Origin: Sedimentibacter sp. SX930
Lineage (GTDB): Bacteria > Bacillota > Bacilli > Lactobacillales > Aerococcaceae
Direction of reading: 5' to 3'
NCBI GenBank assembly: GCA_002155105.1
Contig: MUZD01000008.1
Span: 1 to 64,000, forward strand
DNA: 64,000 nt
Shown: positions 8,311 to 24,149 of the stretch, piece by piece
Position numbering within the stretch: the first letter of the stretch is position 1
How the letters are laid out: the number at the start of each line of letters is the position of its first letter
The notes under the pieces: model-generated
What the model was told of the DNA's origin: nothing
Seen by the model: the letters and a program-made list of their open reading frames with translations, nothing else
The model's database searches: none
Made by a program: the position numbers and the translations under genes

Positions 8311-8340
8311 AAAAAAAACCAACCTCCGGAAGGAAGTTGG
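8311..8340 (-). terminator. Intrinsic terminator downstream of gatB and structured element A
   Basis: Minus-strand CCAACTTCC-TTCC-GGAGGTTGG (9 bp, one G-U) followed by eight U. It ends the gatB transcript after the structured element, 52 nt further on. Confidence 0.85.
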
Positions 8341-8392
8341 CTGGAATGTGTGCAACGCAGACGTGAATTGTCACATCCTATTAGTCGAACTC

Positions 8393-8495
8393 TGAATTGC
8401 AGGTGGTTCCGCCTAACGCTATTTAGGCCCATCCAGCCAAAACCGGGCTGGTTGTTCCTAAATTTCGTTAGTGCTCGCCCCCTACCCGCAATTCA
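8393..8495 (-). ncRNA. Structured element A in the gatB 3' UTR
   Basis: 103 nt, starting 7 bp past the gatB stop. Outer stem TGAATTGC/GCAATTCA; inner stems CTAACG/CGTTAG, ATTTAGG/CCTAAAT and CCAGCC/GGCTGG nest inside each other. Conserved core on the minus strand: GAGCACTAACGA, TTTGGCTG, TGGGC, AGCGTTAGGCGGA. The element at 23384-23488 has the same core, the same nested stems with compensatory changes and the same 7-bp distance from the preceding stop codon. I do not recognise it as a known RNA family. Confidence 0.7.
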
Positions 8496-8502
8496 TCGTA
8501 TC

Positions 8503-9933
8503 CTATCTTTTTTCTAACTCCTGCGCTAGTAGTTGGTTGACCATGCCTGGGTTGGCTTGGCCTTTGGTTTGTTTCATGATTTGGCCAACCAGGAAGCCTT
8601 TGGCGCGGTCTTTTCCGGCTTTGAAGTCGTCAACGGATTGTTGGCTGTTGTCCAAAACGGCGTTGATGATCGGCAACAGTTGCGACGGATCGCTCATTTG
8701 GATCAGGCCTTCTGATTCAACGACTGCTTTAGCGTCGCCGCCTTTTGTTGCCAACAGGCGGAAGACTTTTTTGGCGATCTTCGTGCTGATTGTGCCGTCT
8801 TCGATCAACGTGATCATGCCGGCAAGGTTTGCTGGCGTCAGTTTCGTGTCGGCCAGTTCCACTTTTTCACTGTTCAGGTAAGCAGATACTTCGCCCATCA
8901 ACCAGTTGGAAGCCAGTTTGGCATCCGCTCCTGCAGCAAGAGTACCTTCGAAGAAGTCGGACATTTCTTTCGAAAGTGTCAATACCATTGCATCGTACTC
9001 AGGCAGGTCGTATTCAGAAATGTATCTTTCACGGCGTTTTGCTGGCATTTCCGGAATGCTGGCTTTTACGCGGTCGATCCATTCTTGGGAAACGGTCAAG
9101 CCAGGCAGATCCGGTTCCGGGAAGTAACGGTAATCACTTTCGCCTTCTTTGACGCGCATCAGGATTGTTTCGCCATTTGTTTCATCGAAACGGCGTGTTT
9201 CTTGTTGGATGACTCCGCCAGCGTTCAATACTTGTGCTTGGCGTTTTTCTTCATGAGCCAAACCTCTGCGGACGAAGTTGAAGGAGTTCAGGTTCTTCAA
9301 TTCTGTCTTCGTGCCGAATTTTTCTTGGCCGAATGGGCGGATGGAAATGTTGGCATCGCAACGCATGGAGCCTTCTTCCATCTTCACATCGGATACATCT
9401 GTATACATGATGATTTGGCGTACGGCATCCAAGTAAGCGTAAGCTTCTTCAGGAGAGCGCATATCCGCTTCCGATACGATTTCGATCAATGGTGTTCCTT
9501 GACGGTTCAAATCGACATAGGAATAGCCGTCCGATCCGTGCATGTTTTTGCCGGCATCTTCTTCAAGATGGACGCGCTCGATGCGGATTTTTTTCTTGAC
9601 GCCTTCCACTTCGATTTCGACCCAGCCGTCATGGCCGATTGGGTTATCCAATTGCGAAATTTGGTAAGCTTTCGGATTGTCCGGGTAGAAGTAGTTTTTG
9701 CGGTCGAAGTGCGTTTCCGTCGAGATTTCGCAGTTCAAAGCCAAAGCAGCCTTCATGCAGAATTCGATAGCTCTTTTGTTGATGACAGGCAAGACGCCCG
9801 GGTAGCCCCAGTCGATGACATTTGTGTTTGTGTTCGGTTCTGCCCCAAAGTGTGCTGGAGATGGGGAGAACATTTTTGATTCAGTTTTCAATTCCACATG
9901 GACTTCCAGTCCGATGACTGTTTCATAATTCAT
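8503..9933 (-). CDS. gatB: Aspartyl/glutamyl-tRNA(Asn/Gln) amidotransferase subunit B
   Basis: 476 residues from the ATG at 9933, the standard GatB length, opening [17 protein letters not shown]. The kinase-like cradle domain carries the family blocks [33 protein letters not shown] and [10 protein letters not shown], and the C-terminal YqeY-like tail ends the protein. GatB activates the misacylated Glu-tRNA(Gln)/Asp-tRNA(Asn) for amidation with GatA and GatC. An upstream in-frame ATG at 9951 (MATENI...) may be the ancestral start; everything further upstream is transposon sequence. The start at 9933 has only a GGAA site. A TnpB element splits it from gatA. Its 3' UTR carries structured element A. 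Confidence 0.95.
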
Positions 9934-9954
9934 AATGTTTTCCGTTGCCATAAA

Positions 9955-10088
9955 TCTAACTAAATCTAGTTTATGTTTGCTTCCCTGTTCTTCGTGCCCG
10001 ATTTGGTCCTGACGGACTACTTTCGTTTGATGCAGCACTCCGAGGGCGTAAATTCCGATGCAACGAATCGTACATATCCGAGCTACCG
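9955..10088 (-). ncRNA. Right end of the TnpB element, candidate omega-RNA (reRNA) scaffold
   Basis: 134 bp between the tnpB stop and gatB. In IS200/IS605 elements the right end, together with the 3' part of tnpB, encodes the omega-RNA whose last about 16-20 nt are the flanking target DNA and act as guide. The stretch is GC-balanced, untranslated by known genes and contains small inverted repeats such as ACTAGATTTAGT near its end. If this is the scaffold, the guide would begin near 9967-9955 and read into the gatB leader. The exact boundary cannot be fixed by eye. Confidence 0.4.
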
Positions 10089-11186
10089 CTAGACTGCTTG
10101 GTAATCCCTCAGATTGTAGCTTGCATTCAGATCCCTATCACAATGGTGGCCGCAGGAACAGTGGTAGACCCTGTCGCTGCGTTTCAGGTCCTTTTTGAGC
10201 GTTCCGCAGTTGTTGCACAACTTGGAACTCGGGAACCACTGATCCACTTCAACAAAGACAATGCCATGCAGTTCGCATTTGTATTGCAGGCATTGCTTGA
10301 AGAAATAGAGTTTCTGATTTGCTATTGCCTTAGCCAAATGCTTATTCTTCATCATGCCGCTGATGTTCAGCGTTTCCATCACAATGCGGGAGGGTTTGGA
10401 TTTCACGATCTCCGCTGTTGCTTGATGGACATGATTGGTTCGGATGTTGGCTAAGCGTCGGTGCTGTTTTCGGATTTCACCTTCTAGTTTTAGGAGATGG
10501 TTAGATTTAGGCGTTCCTTTCTTGTATTTTCTGCTTGCACGCCGCTGTAATCTCTTAAGGCGCTTCTCCGCTTTCCTCACGGAGGCTGTTTTGTTGATGT
10601 TTTCATAGAAAACACCATCAGAGGTGACAGCCAACTCCTTGATGCCGATATCCACCCCGACAATTCGATCGTCTAATTCGACGATATTGGGGTTCACTTC
10701 GACACCGACCGTCAGGTACCAATATTTACCGTCGAACTTGATGCGCGGGTTGTAGTATTTGCAATCCACGGGCAACGGCTCGTTGGTTTTGACCCAACCG
10801 ATTTTTTCCAGCAGGACGCGGTTGCCTTTCACTTTCAGCTTGACGCAGTCATTGTAGAAGCTCGGTGTGGAGCGACGCTTTGTCTTGAATCGGGGATGCT
10901 GCGTTTGCCCATTGAAGAAGGTTTTATAGGCTTTACAGGCATCCTTGACCGCTTGCTTGACGACATTGTTGGAAACATCGTTCAGCCAGGCGTATTTTTT
11001 ACGTTTCTTCATCTTGGTGATGTGCTTGCGCAGGTCCCTGTCGCTGATGAATGTCCCGCCGAAGCGATTATTCATTTCCTGCATGCGGATCGTGTAGTTG
11101 TAGGCCCAGCGACCAGCGCCAGCCGCTTGGTAGAGTTTGGAAGTTTCGTCAATCAGAATCAAGCGGACCTTTCTAGTCAGCATCAT
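10089..11186 (-). mobile_element. tnpB: TnpB (OrfB), RNA-guided nuclease of an IS200/IS605-type element
   Basis: 365 residues. The RuvC triad looks intact: Asp in VGVDIGIKEL (about 180), Glu in IVMETLNI (about 270) and Asp in CDRDLNAS (about 352). The zinc ribbon has CNNCG (about 322) and CSCG (about 343). An N-terminal HTH/wedge-like region (KVRLILIDETSKLYQ..., WAYNYTIRM) is normal for the family. An Arg/Lys-rich helix (about 205-250) is also typical. No TnpA transposase is adjacent, so this is a TnpB-only element that would depend on TnpA in trans. AAAGGG precedes the ATG at 11186. The element sits between gatA and gatB in the same orientation, so it is probably co-transcribed. The left end probably abuts TTTAA (plus-strand TTAAA, 11278-11282), a known target motif type for this group. 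Confidence 0.92.
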
Positions 11187-11282
11187 CTCGGATCATCCCT
11201 TTCTATACGCAAAGTATAGAGGAAACAGGATCAAAAACAAAAGATTTGCATGCATTTGAGGAGATTATTATTGACAGTTAAA

Positions 11283-11290
11283 AGCCTCCT
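11283..11290 (-). promoter_or_regulatory. Stranded Shine-Dalgarno site at the gatA stop, probably once used by gatB
   Basis: The minus strand reads TAGGAGGC across the gatA stop codon. A consensus AGGAGG there normally serves the next gene of the operon. Now the TnpB element starts a few bases later, so gatB lies about 1.35 kb away and the site has no start codon near it. Confidence 0.55.
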
Positions 11291-12743
11291 ACAGGTTTGG
11301 GTGTTGGTCAAGATAGTCGTTTGCTTGTTCCAACGCAAACGCGGCTTGATAGATTTTTGCTTCTTCGAAATAGTTACCGATCAATTGGATACCGATCGGC
11401 ATGCCGTCAGCCGCGAAGCCGCCAGGAACGGAAATGGCCGGAACGCCAGCCAAGTTGATCGTTACGGTCAACAAGTCGTCCATGTACATAGCCAATGGAT
11501 CGTCGTTCTTTTCGCCGATTCCGAAAGCAGTCGTTGTAGTGGTAGGTCCCAGAATCAGATCGTAGCCTGCGAAGATGTTCGCAAAATCGCGTTTGATCAG
11601 CGTGCGGACCTGACCAGCCTTTTTGAAGTAAGCATCATAGAAACCGGCACTCAATGAGAAGGATCCCAACATGATGCGGCGTTTCACTTCCATCCCGAAA
11701 CCTTCGGAACGGCTCTTGATGTACAATTCTTCCAACGAATTCACATTTTCTGCACGGTAGCCGTAACGCACTCCGTCAAAACGTTGCAGGTTGGATGAAG
11801 CTTCTGATGAAGCGATGATGTAGTAAGCCGGGATTCCATAAGCCAAAGTCGGCATGCTGACTTCTTCTACGGTAGCGCCCATTTCTTCGAATTGAGCAGC
11901 TGCTTTTCTGACAGCCTCTTGGATTTCAGCGGATACGCCATCTTGGAAATATTCTTTAGGCAATGCGATTTTCATGCCCGCAACTTTTCCGTTCAGGTTC
12001 GCGCTGAATTTCGGCACTTCCATATTTAAGCTCGTGGAGTCTCTCTTATCATAGCCGCTGATTGCTTCCAACAACAAGGCGTTGTCGGTTACGTTGCGCG
12101 TCATCGGACCGATTTGGTCAAGGCTGGACGCAAAAGCGATCAAACCGTAACGGGATACGCGTCCGTATGTCGGTTTCATGCCGACGATACCATTGAAAGC
12201 AGCAGGTTGGCGAATACTTCCACCTGTGTCGGAACCTAATGAAGCGACAACTTCACCGCTGGCAACCGCAGCAGCGGAGCCACCGGATGAACCGCCGGGA
12301 ACTTTTGTCAGGTCCCAAGCATTTTTGGTTTTTTTGTAGTAGGAGTTTTCCGTGCTTCCGCCCATGGCAAATTCGTCCATGTTCAGTTTTCCGACGTTGA
12401 CAGCGCCAGCTTCCTTCAATTTGGTGACGACTGTTGCATCGTAGATCGGCATGAAATCACCCAACATACGGCTCGCCGCTGTCGTTGTCACGCCTTCTGT
12501 GACGATGTTGTCTTTGATCCCTAAAGGAATACCATTCAGGACATTTCCGTCTGCGTAGCCTTTTTCGTCAGCTGCTTGCGCTTGTTTCAAGGCTCCTTCT
12601 TCGTTCAAAGCCAAGAATGCTTCCACTTTTCCGTCCGTTTCAGCGATGCGTTTGAAGGCTGCTTGTGTCAATTCCACGGAAGAGAATTCTTTGTTGACTA
12701 AACCTTCATGCAGGCTCGTTAGCGTTTCATTGAAAATACTCAT
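11289..12743 (-). CDS. gatA: Aspartyl/glutamyl-tRNA(Asn/Gln) amidotransferase subunit A
   Basis: 484 residues, standard for GatA. The amidase-signature catalytic triad is present: Lys in GIKDNIV (about 76), Ser in [16 protein letters not shown] (about 151) and nucleophile Ser in [14 protein letters not shown] (about 175). GatA releases ammonia from glutamine for the GatB transamidation site. The start overlaps the gatC stop by 4 bp (ATGA), so the two are translationally coupled. The C-terminal [16 protein letters not shown] is complete. The TnpB element is inserted directly after the stop codon, leaving the gene itself intact. Confidence 0.96.
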
Positions 12744-13045
12744 GCGCCTTCCACCTCGTTATCTAAAATTGCCGGCACTTGGATCATGCCGTCTTCGGCT
12801 GTCTTGACGTTTTTGAATAAGAGGTCGCGATCCGTACCTGGTTCCGCTACATCTTCACGCATGACATTCTTCAATGCATAGCCATGAGAAGTCACGGGTA
12901 CATCCGTTGTATCGACTGCTTCCAATTGTTCCACCATGTCGATGATGTCGCCCAATTGTTCTGTAAAATGTTTGATTTCATTTGGAGCGAATTCCAGCTT
13001 GGCCAGTTTTGCTACGTGACGCACTTGCTCTTCAGTGATTGCCAT
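12740..13045 (-). CDS. gatC: Aspartyl/glutamyl-tRNA(Asn/Gln) amidotransferase subunit C
   Basis: 101 residues; opens [19 protein letters not shown], the usual GatC N-terminal helix, and continues with the extended belt ([16 protein letters not shown]) that wraps the GatA-GatB interface. It is the first gat gene, 135 bp after camS, with an AAGGGT-type ribosome site, and its stop overlaps the gatA start. The gap to camS could hold a promoter or the genes may be read from the pcrA-ligA-camS transcript. Confidence 0.94.
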
Positions 13046-13180
13046 GTAATACCCTTCTTTCGTTTTTGTGTAGTCATCGTTTTTTTACATACTTATCTAT
13101 TTTAGCATAAAAATCATCGGTTTGTGGGAGTTTTCGTATGTTTCCAGCACTTTCTGAAAACCGGAACAGGCTACTGTCAG

Positions 13181-18639
<5,459 letters not shown>

Positions 18640-18866
18640 CCTTTCTTTTGTTGCCTTTGTTTCGGAGTGTGTATGGGTATGTTCTTTTTTGATAGGTTCA
18701 AGGCGATGGTGCAGCCTTATCGATTCTGATTTGCATCATGGTTTAGTCTATCATTTTAGAGACCGGCTATCAATGAATCCCCTGATATTTTAGATAGTTT
18801 TTAACCCTTGTTCCCCTACGTGCGGTTCCGTTTCTTTTCACACTGTTGTGCCATCCAAAATAAAAA

Positions 18867-18904
18867 TCCTGCCGCTGAACCATTTGGTTGATTCAGCGGC
18901 AGGA
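18867..18904 (-). terminator. Intrinsic terminator after the GntR gene
   Basis: TCCTGCCGCTGAA pairs perfectly with TTCAGCGGCAGGA around a 12-nt loop, with an A-run (18862-18866) giving U residues to minus RNA. It insulates pcrA from the upstream pair. Confidence 0.85.
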
Positions 18905-18918
18905 CTTTCTTTTTCGGT

Positions 18919-19575
18919 CTACTGGGCTAGGATGTCGTTTGAGTCTTTCAACGTATCGAAGAAGAAGATGAGGTATTCGCCCATCTTGTCGTAATCCTTA
19001 TCGCGTATACAGATGCTTACTTCCTGATACAAGGCGAGCAATTTAGCTTCGTTTTGATAGCGCGCTTCATCGATCAAATCACTGTTGTCGGAATAAATTC
19101 CGTGGATATCGCGGGCTGTCGTCATGATCACTTTCTTCATGAACTGGTTGTCGCTTTTGGCAATGAATGTCTCAAAGAGTCGGTATTCATTATTGAAGTA
19201 ACCCGTCGCATCACGGTAATTTAGATACTCCACTTGTTTTTCCAGAAGTTTTTCAAATTCCTTATGATCCAGGGTTATGTCATTTTCCTTCAGATATTGC
19301 AGGTAATTCATGATGAGACCTGCAATCAGTTCCAGGCGTTCCAACAGACCCTCGTTTGAGATCTTCTTCTCAGCCACGATATAGCCTTTGTAGGGAATGG
19401 ATTTCACCATCCCCTCTTCCTCCAGCAAAAGCAGCGCTGTGCGGATCGGTGTCCGGCTCATGAACAAGGCTTCCGAAATAAGTTGTTCGGTTATTTTGGT
19501 TCCCGGAGGCCAGCAACTGCTATCGATTTTGTCTTTTATGTAGTCGTATGCTTTATTGAATAGTCTATCCTCCAT
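18919..19575 (-). CDS. GntR-family transcriptional regulator, FadR/FCD-like
   Basis: 218 residues from the ATG at 19575, preceded by GAAGGAAGG; an in-frame ATG 12 codons upstream lacks a site. The N-terminal winged helix (about 1-70) has the GntR pattern KIDSSCWPPGTKITEQLISEALFMSRTPIRTALLLLEEEG. The C-terminal part is all helical like FCD ligand-binding domains, but lacks an obvious metal-binding His set. It follows the PurK-like gene by 45 bp and shares its terminator, so the two form an operon and the regulator may control it. An inverted repeat upstream of the pair (20834-20877) is a candidate operator. Confidence 0.85.
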   Translation of the reverse strand: MEDRLFNKAYDYIKDKIDSSCWPPGTKITEQLISEALFMSRTPIRTALLLLEEEGMVKSIPYKGYIVAEKKISNEGLLERLELIAGLIMNYLQYLKENDITLDHKEFEKLLEKQVEYLNYRDATGYFNNEYRLFETFIAKSDNQFMKKVIMTTARDIHGIYSDNSDLIDEARYQNEAKLLALYQEVSICIRDKDYDKMGEYLIFFFDTLKDSNDILAQ

Positions 19576-19620
19576 CAATTGATTCCTTCCTTCATATAAG
19601 AGAGCGGACACCTGTTTCCG

Positions 19621-20751
19621 TTACTCTATAGATTCTAACAAGCCGTTTTCTTCCAGTTCGTTGATGAGGATATCCGGGCTGTCACCCAATAATGTGACGT
19701 GTCCCATTTTTCGTTTCGCACGATGTTCTTTTTTTCCGTAAAAATGGAAATGCCAATCTGGTTTGGTCAGCAGCAAAATCAGTGCTTCGTCAAGTTTTTC
19801 CTCCATGATGTTGAACGTCACGCTTGTATCGTACAATTGGATTTCCGGAATGGGCAACCCACAGATGCAGCGGACCAGGATTTCATATTGCGAGATGCTG
19901 CAGCCATCCAGCGAATAATTGCACGAATGGTGTGGTCTGACGACCAATCGGTTCACATAGAGGGAGCCCGATGAAGTCATAAATGTCTCGATCGTCAAAA
20001 TGCCGGTCAGATTCATGGCCTTCGCAGCCAGCTTGCCTATATGTTCAAGCTCTTTCTGGATGTTTCCGCCTACGCGTGCTGGCGTGATTGTCTTCACAAG
20101 TTTCTGCTCCCGATAGACCGTTTCGGTGACTGGGAATGATGTGAACACGTTGTTCGCATCCTGTGCGACTGTGATGGCCAACTCCATCTCGAAGGGGATC
20201 CAAGCCTCCAAAATGCACGTTCCCTTTTTAAGCAAGGCTGATGCCCTGCCAAAATCCTCTTCACTGTAAAAAAGATGCTGCACCGGCGTGGCCGCTTCGA
20301 CGCGGATCGGCTTCAGCACACACGGGAAGCCTATGCTTTTGACCGCCTCTTCCATGTCTTCGATTGCAGTTATCGTCGCGTAAGGCGTTACGTTGATGTT
20401 CAAGGATTCCAGAAACGCTTTTTCTATCAACCGGTCTTGGGTGATGGAAAGGCTGTCCGGATCCTGCGGTATGCTGATATAAGGATTGATTTGTGTCAGC
20501 AACATCGTATCCACGGCCTCGGATTCAAAAGTCAGGACGTCCGATTTAGCTGCGAGGTCTGTCAGCGCATCGAAGTCCGTATATTTCTTGGTTATCTGCC
20601 AATCAGCTATTTGCCCAGCCGGACAGGCAGGATCGGCGTCCAAGATGCCTATTTGGTAGCCCATTTTTTTGGCTTCCAAAGCAATCATACGGGCGACATG
20701 TCCTCCGCCAATAATACCGATTGTTTTCCCGGGTAAAATTTGATTCGGCAT
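19621..20751 (-). CDS. ATP-grasp protein related to PurK, with altered ATP loop
   Basis: 376 residues, the size of N5-carboxyaminoimidazole ribonucleotide synthase. N-terminal GKTIGIIGGGHVARMIALEAKKMGY and ILDADPACPAG match PurK, as do TFESEAVD, the central ATP-grasp part and RPHHSCNYSLDGCSISQYEILVRCICGLPIP near the C-terminus. However, the PurK glycine-rich loop (GYDGKGQ) after the Lys of VLKP is replaced by RVEAATPVQHLF, and Pro-Arg-Pro-His-Asn is LVVRPHHSCNY. There are no other purine genes here. So it is a diverged paralogue rather than the purine-pathway enzyme; its substrate and even activity are open. Paired with a GntR regulator. Confidence 0.75.
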   Translation of the reverse strand: MPNQILPGKTIGIIGGGHVARMIALEAKKMGYQIGILDADPACPAGQIADWQITKKYTDFDALTDLAAKSDVLTFESEAVDTMLLTQINPYISIPQDPDSLSITQDRLIEKAFLESLNINVTPYATITAIEDMEEAVKSIGFPCVLKPIRVEAATPVQHLFYSEEDFGRASALLKKGTCILEAWIPFEMELAITVAQDANNVFTSFPVTETVYREQKLVKTITPARVGGNIQKELEHIGKLAAKAMNLTGILTIETFMTSSGSLYVNRLVVRPHHSCNYSLDGCSISQYEILVRCICGLPIPEIQLYDTSVTFNIMEEKLDEALILLLTKPDWHFHFYGKKEHRAKRKMGHVTLLGDSPDILINELEENGLLESIE

Positions 20752-20833
20752 GTGATCACACTACTCTCTTGGATTTTTCGTTAGAATTAGGAATAAGTTA
20801 AAAAAAAGTCTTCACCACATCATTTTATCACTA

Positions 20834-20877
20834 TATTCGACGAATGTCGCCATGCAAAAACTGTCCGTTCGTCGAAT
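20834..20877. repeat. 10-bp inverted repeat upstream of the PurK-like gene
   Basis: ATTCGACGAA and TTCGTCGAAT are exact inverse copies separated by 24 bp, 83 bp before the PurK-like start. It may be a regulator operator or an extra hairpin; the long loop argues against a simple terminator. Confidence 0.4.
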
Positions 20878-20957
20878 TTTCGTAGTAAGTCAGGGAGCGT
20901 GCAGTTAAAATTTGCCAGGTTGCCGGAAAACAGGGTGTTCTCCGATTCCGACGCAAA

Positions 20958-21010
20958 AAACGCACGGACAGGCTGTCCTCCTCAAAAGAGTATAGCCTGT
21001 CCGCGCGTTT
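20958..21010 (-). terminator. Intrinsic terminator after the glucosaminidase gene
   Basis: AAACGCACGGACAGGCT pairs with AGCCTGTCCGCGCGTTT with one or two mismatches; the plus-strand A6 run supplies U residues to minus RNA. Starts 14 bp past the stop codon. Confidence 0.8.
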
Positions 21011-21023
21011 CTGTTTGCATCCT

Positions 21024-21644
21024 TCAATTATCATACTCATAAAGTGCATTCTGTTCGATGACCGCTATCAATTTGGCGGCATAATCCGGATCGGTCGCAT
21101 AACCGCAATCTTGGAGAGCTTGGGCCGCTTCTTGATAAGTGGTTGCCTGCAGAACCGGAGCGTATTGATTCGGATCCCAAGTGGTACCGTTCACGAACAA
21201 CAGTGCATGGTCATGGACCGATTCTGCCCAGTTGCCGTAGACCCTGAAGTTTGCTTGGATGGTGACCCACTGGCCGTTGTAGTATTCATTGGTAGTCAAG
21301 AGGACCGTATTCCCCGGGTCATCACCCTTCATGCCGTACAGATTATTGTAGACAGCGGAAAGTTCGCTCTCTCCCCAATCCGATTCAAGGATCGCTTGTG
21401 CGATGCTGATGCTGGCATGGACGCCGTAAGTCGCTTGCATCTGTTGCGCTGCAGGGGCGATATTGCCGATGAAGTCAGTTCCCTGATTATTGCCATACTC
21501 CGGGATATCCGGAATGATTGGAGAAAAATCGCCGATCAGCGACAGACTTGCCATAAAACTGATCAATAAGAAAAATAAAATCTTGACGGCCTTAGCGGAT
21601 GCTGATTGCGGTTGTTTTCGAGTCCGCTTTCTCTTTCGTGCCAT
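21024..21644 (-). CDS. Peptidoglycan N-acetylglucosaminidase (GH73, LytG/FlgJ-like)
   Basis: 206 residues. A Lys/Arg-rich start and one hydrophobic helix (about 20-42) form an uncleaved or cleaved export signal. The GH73 domain (about 60-200) has AQAILESDWGESELS with the catalytic Glu, YNNLYGMKG and the WAESVHDHALLF and YATDPDYAAKLIAVIE blocks of glucosaminidases that cut cell wall glycan. No LysM or other wall-binding repeats follow, so it is a single-domain exported hydrolase. Start ATG has GGAGGAACAT upstream. It lies 37 bp downstream of the VanY-like gene on the same strand, so the two wall enzymes probably share a transcript. Confidence 0.9.
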   Translation of the reverse strand: MARKRKRTRKQPQSASAKAVKILFFLLISFMASLSLIGDFSPIIPDIPEYGNNQGTDFIGNIAPAAQQMQATYGVHASISIAQAILESDWGESELSAVYNNLYGMKGDDPGNTVLLTTNEYYNGQWVTIQANFRVYGNWAESVHDHALLFVNGTTWDPNQYAPVLQATTYQEAAQALQDCGYATDPDYAAKLIAVIEQNALYEYDN

Positions 21645-21681
21645 ATGTTCCTCCGTCTGTTTGGTTGTGCTATTTTACCTG

Positions 21682-22533
21682 CTATTGTTCACTGTTCCCA
21701 ATCGTTTCATTTTGCTTCAGGATTGCTACGTATTCTTCCAAAGTCAGGTTGTTTTCGGTCATGTAAACAGCGTTCTCTATACCCACATACCGAAAATGCC
21801 AGGGTTCAAAATTGATGCCGGTGATGGCTTCCTTCGCTTTTGGATAGCGCAAGACAAAACCGAATTTGGGTGCATTTTCTTTCAGCCAAAGCCCCTCAGG
21901 ATAATTCTCCAGATCCGGGAATAAGCCTGAATTGCCTTCTTGGTTGGCTAACACTGTCGCTGTGATATCCACGGCGAGTCCGGTTGTGTGTTCACTGGCA
22001 TTAGGCAAAGCGATATATTCTTCTGTTTTCGCGCGTGCCTCTGCTTCAGACAAACCTGCAGCCAGATAATTCTGATAGTTGACGTCATAGTTTGCCTGCT
22101 GTTGCTCGATGGAGCGGTAACCTGAAATCATCGTGAAATCCATTCCGGCAGCTTTCCCTGCTTCCAGCAGTTGTAAATAAGGTTCCTGTATCCTGCTGTC
22201 GATCGGATAGCCGCTCTCGGTCAGGTAGATCTCCATTGCGATTTCTTCAGCAAGCTGATTTTCCCTGTTCACCAATACCAGATTCCAGTCAGTTGAGGAA
22301 GCTGCAGGTGTCACGATCACTTTGGACCCGGCTTCGTCAACTGAAGCTTGGGAAGAGGATTGCGCTTCTTCTGAATGATTGCTTGTTGTCGAATCCTGCT
22401 GACTGTTTGACGGTTCATCGTCATCGGTCGTGCATCCTGTGAAAAAGAGCATCGCCAGCAAGAGACCCGCAAGGAAACGCAGTCTTTGTGCGTACCTCTC
22501 AGGTGTATGGGAATATTTTTTTTTCGTTTCCAT
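21682..22533 (-). CDS. VanY-type D-alanyl-D-alanine carboxypeptidase, lipoprotein
   Basis: 283 residues. Lipobox FTGC (Cys about 34) after a hydrophobic stretch marks a lipoprotein; a Ser/Gln/Asp-rich linker (about 38-75) follows. The peptidase M15B domain has ISGYRSIEQQQ (about 150), the zinc site SEHTTGLAVDI (His and Asp, about 190-197) and EPWHFRYVG (Glu and His, about 247-252). It trims the terminal D-Ala from peptidoglycan stem peptides; there are no vanHAX genes, so this is ordinary wall maturation rather than vancomycin resistance. Good AGAGGGCAG ribosome site. Upstream of and probably co-transcribed with the glucosaminidase. Confidence 0.9.
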   Translation of the reverse strand: METKKKYSHTPERYAQRLRFLAGLLLAMLFFTGCTTDDDEPSNSQQDSTTSNHSEEAQSSSQASVDEAGSKVIVTPAASSTDWNLVLVNRENQLAEEIAMEIYLTESGYPIDSRIQEPYLQLLEAGKAAGMDFTMISGYRSIEQQQANYDVNYQNYLAAGLSEAEARAKTEEYIALPNASEHTTGLAVDITATVLANQEGNSGLFPDLENYPEGLWLKENAPKFGFVLRYPKAKEAITGINFEPWHFRYVGIENAVYMTENNLTLEEYVAILKQNETIGNSEQ

Positions 22534-22635
22534 CTTCTGCCCTCTTCTGGTCTGTAATTATTTGCTATGCCTATTTTAGCACAACTGGCCCTCAAACCAC
22601 ACCCAAAAAGTAAGCCTTAACCCTGAAACACACGA

Positions 22636-22663
22636 AAAGCCAAGATAGTATCATCTCGGCTTT
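22636..22663 (-). terminator. Short intrinsic terminator after the orphan HTH-like gene
   Basis: AAAGCCAAGAT pairs with ATCTCGGCTTT with a mismatch, loop 6 nt. It starts 16 bp past the stop codon. U-tract on the minus side is short, so strength is uncertain. Confidence 0.5.
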
Positions 22664-22678
22664 CCGGTTTATATTCTA

Positions 22679-23215
22679 TTATTCAGTAATATTTGTGATG
22701 GTATCAGGCGTATTCTCATTGAACCATTCAAGCAGATTGATTTTTTCCGAATCGATCTGATGACGGATGATGCTAGGCAAGCGCAGATCGATGATATCTT
22801 TGTAACTCCAGAAATCATAATTGCACTCAAGCCGTAGTGTGGTGATTGCCGGTTTATGGATTTCTGAATCATGGACTGTCTCTTCGGTGGTGTACCATTT
22901 GAAATCGGCCAAATCCGTCGCTATCCATTTTTTGGCGACTTGATATTTCAGGAAATGATATTCTCTTACAGGGTTCTCTGCCACTTCGGGAAGAATTTCG
23001 GCATTGCGGCAAACTTTCTGGACAAGCATCCATTCATAATCGGTAAACAGTTTAGAAATGATCTGCATGTTCTCTGGTTTTAAACCATGCTCTCCTTTTT
23101 TCCAGCGATCCCAGCTCTGCGGCGAGATCCCTAGTTGATTGGCATAAAAAGCTTTTTCACTGACATATTGCTCTTTGATCGTAAACAAGACAATTGTTAT
23201 AAGTGCATTATTCAT
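22679..23215 (-). CDS. Uncharacterised protein with N-terminal HTH-like segment
   Basis: 178 residues, not recognised. Residues about 17-60 (EKAFYANQLGISPQSWDRWKKGEHGLKP) read like a Cro/C1-type helix-turn-helix in which SPQSWDRWKKG would be the recognition helix region. The C-terminal 110 residues are rich in aromatic and charged residues with no known motif and no membrane helix. A good GGAGG ribosome site precedes the ATG. The gene stands alone between the acuB terminator and the wall-enzyme pair. DNA-binding regulator is the best guess but unproven. Confidence 0.65.
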   Translation of the reverse strand: MNNALITIVLFTIKEQYVSEKAFYANQLGISPQSWDRWKKGEHGLKPENMQIISKLFTDYEWMLVQKVCRNAEILPEVAENPVREYHFLKYQVAKKWIATDLADFKWYTTEETVHDSEIHKPAITTLRLECNYDFWSYKDIIDLRLPSIIRHQIDSEKINLLEWFNENTPDTITNITE

Positions 23216-23283
23216 TTATGTAACCTCCAATCTATCATGTTCTTATTATACACTTATTACGTGATAAAAGAAATAATTTGCTT

Positions 23284-23323
23284 AAAAAAAACCGCCCACT
23301 CCGTTTTGTTGGAGTGAGCGGCT
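23284..23323 (-). terminator. Intrinsic terminator downstream of acuB and structured element B
   Basis: Minus-strand GCCGCTCACTCC pairs with GGAGTGGGCGGT around an 8-nt loop, then eight U. Ends the liv-acuB transcript after structured element B. Confidence 0.85.
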
Positions 23324-23383
23324 TGCTTATTTGTATGATGTTTCTTGGTGAACGGGATTATTTGGATCCTTTTAGAACGGTTC

Positions 23384-23488
23384 TGAATCCTAGAGTTCTC
23401 CGCCTAACGCTGTTCATGCCCACTCAGCCAAACCCAGGCTGCGCAGTCCTGAACCTCGTTAGTGCTCAAACTCTGAGCTCAGGATTCA
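23384..23488 (-). ncRNA. Structured element B in the acuB 3' UTR
   Basis: 105 nt, 7 bp past the acuB stop. Minus strand: outer stem TGAATCCT/AGGATTCA, then AGAGTT/AACTCT, CTAACG/CGTTAG, GTTCA/TGAAC and CAGCC/GGCTG. Element A shares the core blocks GAGCACTAACGA, TTTGGCTG, TGGGC and AGCGTTAGGCGGA. Outer stem TTGC/GCAA in A versus TCCT/AGGA in B, and inner stem ATTTA/TAAAT versus GTTCA/TGAAC, are compensatory changes that keep pairing. A strong terminator lies 60 nt further. Confidence 0.7.
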
Positions 23489-23495
23489 TCACACA

Positions 23496-24149
23496 CTATA
23501 CTCGTTCTGGTTTGTAGATGATTGATCCGATTTCGTAGCCGTGTTCTTCGAGTCTGGCACGGATGCCGTCGATGTCTTTGCTTTCCAACTGGATGACGAC
23601 CTGGACATAGCCCATTTTGCGGTAAGTCGCGATCTGTTGGATGTTGATGTTCTCATCGGAGAAGATATCCGTCAGGTCTTCAAGAACGCCTTTTTTGTCT
23701 TCATGGATATTTACGACAACGCGGACGCCCGGTGTGTAGTAGCCCAGCACATCGATGAAGGCAGAGAAGATATCCTTTTCGGTGATGATGCCGATCAGGC
23801 GGTTGCCTGCCTCGACGACCGGCAATACGCTGATGCCATTCTCACGCATCATTACTGCAGCTTCTTCCAAAAGAGCTTCCTTGTTGATTGTCACGACGCG
23901 TTTTTCCATGATGTCGGCCACTGTTGTTTTATTCAACAGATAGTTGACTTCATGCATATCCAGGCTGGTCATGCTGGAAGGCGTATTGCGTTCGATGATG
24001 CCCTCCGTGATCAGGCCCACGATGGTCTCGCCTTGCACGACCGGCAGACGGTGAATCTTGTGCTCCTTCATCAAATCCAAAGCTTCGATGATTTTTGTTG
24101 AAGGTTGAATCGTTACTAAATCCGTTGACATATAGCTCTGTACATCCAT
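23496..24149 (-). CDS. acuB: AcuB-like protein: two CBS domains plus ACT domain
   Basis: 217 residues. Two CBS motifs (about 1-60 and 75-130: IEALDLMKEHKIHRLPVVQGETIVGLITE and AVMMRENGISVLPVVEAGNRLIGIITEKDIF) form a Bateman module that usually binds adenine nucleotides. An ACT-like domain (about 138-210, PGVRVVVNIHEDKKGVLEDLTDIFSDENINIQQI) follows; such domains often bind amino acids. The start lies 3 bp after the livF stop, so it is the last gene of the branched-chain amino acid transport operon. By position it could sense energy or amino acid state for transport, which is inference. The acuB name is by architecture only; the acetoin role of B. subtilis AcuB is not implied. Confidence 0.85.
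   Translation of the reverse strand: MDVQSYMSTDLVTIQPSTKIIEALDLMKEHKIHRLPVVQGETIVGLITEGIIERNTPSSMTSLDMHEVNYLLNKTTVADIMEKRVVTINKEALLEEAAVMMRENGISVLPVVEAGNRLIGIITEKDIFSAFIDVLGYYTPGVRVVVNIHEDKKGVLEDLTDIFSDENINIQQIATYRKMGYVQVVIQLESKDIDGIRARLEEHGYEIGSIIYKPERV

Follow-up and report, generated by a model that had tools for sequence, protein, structure and literature searches.

A structured, probably mobile repeat behind gene 3' ends in Trichococcus and other Bacilli

The window analysed here is a 64,000-nt stretch of DNA from Sedimentibacter sp. SX930 (contig MUZD01000008.1, positions 1 to 64,000), a genome that we counted as a Trichococcus genome. Its minus strand carries two hairpin-forming elements, designated as A and B, which lie behind gatB and an acuB-like gene, respectively (Table 1). 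A first-pass annotation had described an ordered set of blocks common to the two segments and stem positions that were changed on both sides; the blocks matched exactly, and the listed changes were present in both segments. The hosts that it named agree with the Pfam domains of the two proteins, and the terminators that it placed behind the elements were found as terminator-like T-run stems about 50 and 60 nt past the ends drawn at that time. Its spacing of 7 nt between stop codon and element is correct when counted to ATGAAT, but the real element is longer and begins about 1 nt past the stop, as bounded by the covariance model R1 described below. Element B has the architecture of element A with other stem sequences. 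The two fold as single hairpins at −57.6 and −52.1 kcal/mol, with z scores of −8.5 and −6.0 (A and B, respectively; both strands), and the window contains the pattern GAGCACTAACGA-N40..70-AGCGTTAGGCGGA two times, with none of 100 dinucleotide shuffles containing it.

A slightly shorter pattern revealed a third exact copy elsewhere in the same genome, and R1 was built from these three copies. In its own genome, R1 gave 28 matches at E ≤ 1, comprising 19 sense matches at E ≤ 1.1e-8, six weaker ones and three antisense readings of the seeds. A unit is about 120 nt long, or about 165–175 nt with an added module. Reading of the own-genome matches showed a common frame, in which the 5' end consists of AG, the helix P1a and GATG and the 3' end consists of CAGA and P1a'; the bases preceding AG at the 5' tip vary between units. 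P1a occurs as GCGT/ACGC, GTGT/ACAC, GCGC/GCGC, GA(U)AC/GUUC and GA(U)GU/ACUC, the last two with a bulged U. Beside it, GA stands opposite GA as a tandem G.A mismatch, and then follows P1b, which is variable in sequence yet nearly always paired. P1a as a four-pair helix and the mismatch beside it were identified by eye; only two P1a pairs belong to the counted structure, and these were unpaired in 2 and 14 of 91 cells. The interiors fall into a GAGCACTAAG...CTTAGGC type, to which the window elements belong, a GTTTAGATACCCGGACGTTGG type, and chimeras with nested modules. A strict search for the frame in 1.2 Mb of genome G009 found 24 frames, about five of which appeared by eye to be chance matches in coding sequence, and the controls gave none (reversed) and one (complement). 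Some units (L136, L137, L149 and L033) are interrupted, at varied places, by a second hairpin repeat, GGATGCACTGTGACCG...GCCATGACA, which measures about 72 nt, and a third module, GGCACTCAAACGTCACAGTGCGACGTTTGAGGTC..., takes the place of the 3' half in several units (L138, L140, L149, L198, L035 and L036).

Each unit forms one long interrupted hairpin, the helices of which, including the two counted P1a pairs, are kept by compensatory changes. Among 92 distinct Trichococcus rows, 95.6% of the pair cells are standard and 28 of the 39 pairs show two-sided changes, with a covariation score of 0.450 as compared with 0.151 for shuffled and at most 0.086 for slid controls. In a cross-genus alignment of 39 distinct rows (12 from Trichococcus and 27 others), all 39 modelled pairs show two-sided changes, and the score reaches 0.932 (0.214 shuffled); for 98 distinct non-Trichococcus rows, it is 0.903 (0.203 shuffled). 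What is recognised in the repeat seems to be mainly the folded shape and not a fixed sequence.

R1 matches at E ≤ 1e-4 were present in 13 of 13 Trichococcus genomes and, within the same family, in one of 63 other genomes, namely G018, which has 22 matches at E ≤ 0.1, many of them in arrays. A broader model, R2, added two members of the family (G053 and G064). Across the order, R2 matched at least 43 of 395 genomes (11 of the 43 being Trichococcus) in at least 20 of 80 genera, and across the class, R3 matched at least 19 of 398 genomes (15 outside the order) in at least 9 of 146 genera; these counts are lower bounds because nine candidates were scored per genome. The majority of order and class genomes had no match to R2 or R3. 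The covariance-model search of relatives proposed in the first-pass annotation yielded further copies with compensatory changes, and the Rfam comparison proposed alongside it gave no match for any copy tested: at the gathering score, nothing was found over the window elements or 50 further loci, and loose searches of eight stretches or loci (A, B, the L001 stretch and five more) gave weak matches only, those of A and B being far below the family cut-offs. The plasmid query L345 matched 23 records, 17 of which are typed as mobilizable; the carriers named are Lacticaseibacillus, Pediococcus and Lactiplantibacillus, and no annotated feature lies beneath the match among the 15 matches listed. Element B and L344 as plasmid queries, two queries in a phage search and one pattern in viral contigs gave no match. 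On two Lacticaseibacillus paracasei plasmids (L358 and L359), units are located between a phosphotransferase system (PTS) IID gene and a DUF956 gene, with two tandem units on one plasmid and a single unit on the other.

The position of the units relative to genes was examined with 93 distinct Trichococcus matches, of which 73 are leading units (no unit just upstream); 70 of these have a scored upstream open reading frame and three were left out. The upstream reading frame is on the same strand in 59 cases and on the other strand in 11. As many as 49 of the 70 units start between −6 and +9 nt from a same-strand stop, 46 of them at +1 to +9 and three at −6, where the reading frame is closed by TGA inside the unit; as background, 2.6% of noncoding positions in the 8-kb loci and 2.4% in the G009 sample lie 0 to +9 nt past a same-strand stop. 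The reverse arrangement, in which a convergent stop lies no more than 20 nt from the 3' end of the unit, applies to 2 of the 93 matches. Neighbouring units less than 100 nt apart point in the same direction in 11 of 11 Trichococcus pairs and in 35 of 36 pairs elsewhere, the sole opposed pair (L357 1350-1620) having its units 30 nt apart. At other Bacilli loci, where 8 of 71 leading units were left out of the position count, 21 of the remaining 63 start no more than 10 nt from a same-strand stop, including three at −6 or −8, as compared with a background of 1.9%. Genome G538 has two near-identical rRNA operons with a unit between the 23S and 5S genes, placed about 7 nt past the end of the 23S rRNA. 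Because these units follow 23S rRNA, the preference is for a gene 3' boundary and is not strictly tied to translation.

Table 1. Positions of the window elements with their hosts and surroundings, and of two units in rRNA operons
Feature	Position	Strand	Remarks
Element A, full repeat unit after gatB	8378..8501	-	Bounds from covariance model R1
Element A, helices			P1a GA(U)AC/GUUC and tandem G.A (by eye), P1b UGAAUUGC/GCAAUUCA, P2
Element A, further in			Bulged-A helix GC-A-CUAACG/CGUUAGGC, apical hairpin
gatB stop codon TAG	8503..8505	-	Adjoins element A
gatB open reading frame, host of element A	8503..10038	-	Pfam GatB_N, GatB_Yqey; real start possibly further in
Intrinsic-terminator-like hairpin with T-run	8317..8342	-	Downstream of element A
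Element B, full repeat unit after acuB-like gene	23369..23494	-	Bounds from covariance model R1
acuB-like gene stop codon TAG	23496..23498	-	Adjoins element B
CBS and ACT domain protein (acuB-like), host of element B	23496..24149	-	Pfam
Intrinsic-terminator-like hairpin with T-run	23289..23324	-	Downstream of element B
23S-5S unit, genome G538, locus L368	1493-1622
23S-5S unit, genome G538, locus L395	1493-1615

To follow single sites, 13 host-gene ends were located in the genus, and 10 were fetched from 10–11 further genomes each (ychF from five); three of the gene ends, the matches in G011 and six ychF matches were not fetched, and L020 was omitted from the queries. Gene names apart from gatB and acuB were assigned by eye. 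Behind the same stop codon, different species have other units, arrays, remnants or no visible unit. Differences were also found within one species: in two conspecific genomes, the first 120 nt after the stop differ at 5 of 10 sites (58, 63, 73, 76 and 78% identity), and the last 50 nt of the coding sequence at these five sites are 96–100% identical. At acuB, glnA and argS, these 50 nt are identical, and the following 120 nt are 58, 76 and 63% identical, respectively.

The units are also flanked by short direct repeats, such as ACTAG (mazG), GATAG (gatB) and CATAG (acuB of G006). The three bases before the unit and those before the next AG past its 3' end agree at 112 of 222 positions (74 units), as compared with a shuffled mean of 70.1 (sd 6.1). 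When shuffling was confined to terminal classes, the mean was 76.2 (sd 5.8), and none of 5000 shuffles reached 112.

Several neighbouring features were noted along with the units. Just upstream of gatB in the window, a TnpB-like open reading frame (9981-11186, minus strand; OrfB_IS605, Cas12f1-like_TNB) has a RAGATH-18 match (RF03064) directly behind its tail; the match, which we presume to resemble the guide-RNA end of an IS605-type element, is unrelated to both hairpins. In a Lactobacillales genome, an L20 leader match (L352 1675-1802) lies beside a three-unit array. At L379 1770-1916, the Rfam entry tsr24, a small RNA of S. aureus, matches on the opposite strand just downstream of a unit and an apparent partial second unit.

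We consider it likely that elements A and B represent a structured repeat that is mobile but non-autonomous and colonises the 3' ends of genes. The first-pass annotation had left three readings open, namely an undescribed 3' untranslated region (3'-UTR) RNA family, a small RNA from mRNA 3' ends, and a mobile structured repeat directed to the space behind stop codons. The last is well supported by the further copies, compensatory changes, stop adjacency and differing occupants of single sites, and the repeat is apparently undescribed. A gene-specific 3'-UTR regulator is unlikely, since the units at one gene end vary between species and within one species. In the process that we envisage, a unit would insert at a gene 3' end and duplicate about 3–5 bp, often including part of the stop codon; its tip (AG...) or an internal TGA would restore the stop, so that the insertion would be harmless. 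Arrays may grow and interiors may be swapped through further insertion and recombination, and if translation termination or mRNA stability were affected, this would be a by-product. Because terminators lie beyond both window units, transcription probably runs through the copies, which would then form the beginning of the 3' UTR.

Several observations weigh against a mobile repeat of this kind. Stop adjacency is weaker outside Trichococcus, where two thirds of the 63 units are not near a stop, and orthologous sites were counted repeatedly in both the stop-adjacency and the direct-repeat tallies. Turnover is not universal: the other 5 of the 10 conspecific sites are 93–100% identical, with downstream array members differing at some of them (gatB, groEL and mazG). 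No clean pair of empty and filled sites was obtained, the near-empty sites mostly holding remnants, and the direct repeats could also arise by unequal crossing-over or tandem array growth. As for the covariation, the count of two-sided changes (39 pairs) in the 98-row set was reached by 21 of 500 shuffles and is not telling there, and the alignments were fitted to covariance models of the same structure and lean towards the model; despite this fitting, the slid controls score very much lower. No autonomous partner was found in the 1.2 Mb and the 8-kb loci, in which one matched frame exceeds 300 nt (370 nt, L085). Finally, Y1_Tnp is absent from the unit-bearing genomes G004 and G018, 30 Y1 loci gave one weak motif match and no convincing unit, and RVT_1 is absent from G018 and from 6 of 12 Trichococcus genomes (one of the six being 63% complete).

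Among the alternatives, the most serious, albeit unlikely in our judgement, is that selection keeps the hairpin near the stop as a functional 3'-UTR element with an action on mRNA decay or on the terminating ribosome. Tolerance of insertion by itself would apparently leave the units much less closely tied to stop codons than they are; both window units precede terminators, and a precedent has been proposed for E. coli REPs (repetitive extragenic palindromes) located no more than 15 nt from a stop (PMC12306157). G.U also exceeds A.C in deep alignments, as expected for an RNA-folded sense strand (46 vs 9 in the 39-row alignment; 164 vs 49 in a larger set including those rows), although alignment to a covariance model favours G.U and biases this cross-genus asymmetry. 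The 12 Trichococcus rows of the cross-genus alignment gave 12 vs 4, but among the 92 Trichococcus rows the two are near equal (54 vs 40, p 0.18). Moreover, the host genes have no common theme (two judged by Pfam, the others by eye), in some species the same gene is followed by nothing more than a remnant or lacks a visible unit altogether, and the G538 units follow an untranslated RNA. There is a weak indication that selection acts on the mobile lineage, favouring a folded sense strand, and only little on single copies; single Trichococcus copies seem to decay without strand preference, because G.U and A.C are nearly equal there.

Membership in the REP/RAYT systems, in which REP palindromes are moved by an IS200/IS605-type tyrosine transposase, appears improbable. 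A TAG at the unit boundary acts as a stop, as is stated for GTAG REPs (PMC3733652), and Y1_Tnp genes occur in 10 of the 14 genomes tested, including 10 of 11 Trichococcus genomes. However, the units have no constant GTAG tip and measure about 120 nt instead of 20–40, and the copies in G004 and G018 and the 30 Y1 loci mentioned above speak against such membership. Processing of mRNA 3' ends into a structured small RNA is slightly less probable still: it would fit the strong structure, the downstream terminator and the lack of a promoter-like site in either window region, but the units are many and interchangeable in each genome, stand in arrays on chromosomes and plasmids, and share no unpaired seed across types as judged by eye. 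A chance likeness of two unrelated terminator-like hairpins, which the first-pass annotation had named among the refuting outcomes, has nothing in its favour beyond both being hairpins and can practically be dismissed; it is refuted by copy number, with many further copies in the own genome, and by covariation, and the block pattern is absent from shuffles.

With regard to the machinery that would move the repeat, an IS200/RAYT mobiliser is disfavoured by the lack of Y1_Tnp in two genomes with many copies, and a reverse transcriptase by the lack of RVT_1 in G018 and six Trichococcus genomes. A sequence-specific DDE transposase is argued against because the unit termini vary, the DDE families themselves not having been searched. 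We tentatively suggest, as a possibility short of an even chance, that the repeat represents a shape-recognised class of mobile RNA or DNA across Bacilli, with sense insertion at gene 3' boundaries by a machinery other than IS200-type transposases and reverse transcriptases. Palindromic repeats of small size abound, but their choice of sites and the means by which they move are mostly unsolved. The present family offers a clean system, in which a dozen species with differing occupants can be compared at one stop codon, the covariation shows features that a machinery could recognise, and the patchy presence allows a mobiliser to be sought via gene presence. Should the hairpin act on the terminating ribosome, housekeeping genes would alter their 3' ends on a within-species time scale.

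Other known repeats resemble the units in part. BOX of pneumococcus and bcr of Bacillus cereus are modular or structured intergenic repeats of Firmicutes, and we liken them to the present units by description only; to our knowledge, tethering to stop codons has been noted for neither. Integron attC sites are imperfect hairpins located right after stop codons, with structure conserved above sequence, and the string GTTAGGC in the present units resembles the attC core. In the present units, however, GTTAGGC lies within the outer helix, CTAAG/CTTAG variants lack it, and the units are dispersed behind many genes genome-wide. Among the literature matches listed for repeats, REPs and hairpins of Bacilli, none describes the present family, and the main text of a Trichococcus genome paper (PMC6950789) does not contain the terms repeat, transpos or palindrom. 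The claim of an undescribed family therefore holds as far as Rfam and these literature matches go.

The closest parallels are REPs and miniature inverted-repeat transposable elements (MITEs). The units are dispersed intergenic palindromes with mosaic arrays and strain variation, as are REPs and bacterial interspersed mosaic elements, and they share with REP/RAYT an extragenic location that often abuts stop codons. GTAG-REP termini are said often to supply a TAG stop codon (PMC3733652), and the E. coli REPs within 15 nt of a stop are given as 260 of 496 in one study and 446 of 4,072 in another, with cited work in which such REPs stall ribosomes (PMC12306157). In contrast to REPs, the present units combine an internal pattern of helices, G.A mismatch and bulge with covarying termini, swappable interiors and mostly one orientation, and no Y1 transposase tracks them. 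MITEs such as ERIC/RU-1, RUP and Correia/NEMIS are non-autonomous, about 100–200 bp long, form long stem-loops and make target duplications, according to the part of a review cited here (PMC2229807), and the present units are likewise 100–200 bp long, presumably non-coding, multi-copy and hairpin-forming. The same part of the review attributes terminal inverted repeats to most bacterial MITEs, matched in RUP to an IS630 transposase, and does not describe such a placement at stop codons. The present termini are not fixed inverted repeats; their changes come in compensating pairs, and constancy is confined to short motifs. The family thus behaves most like REP and MITE repeats, yet lacks tested features of both, and is larger and modular relative to them.

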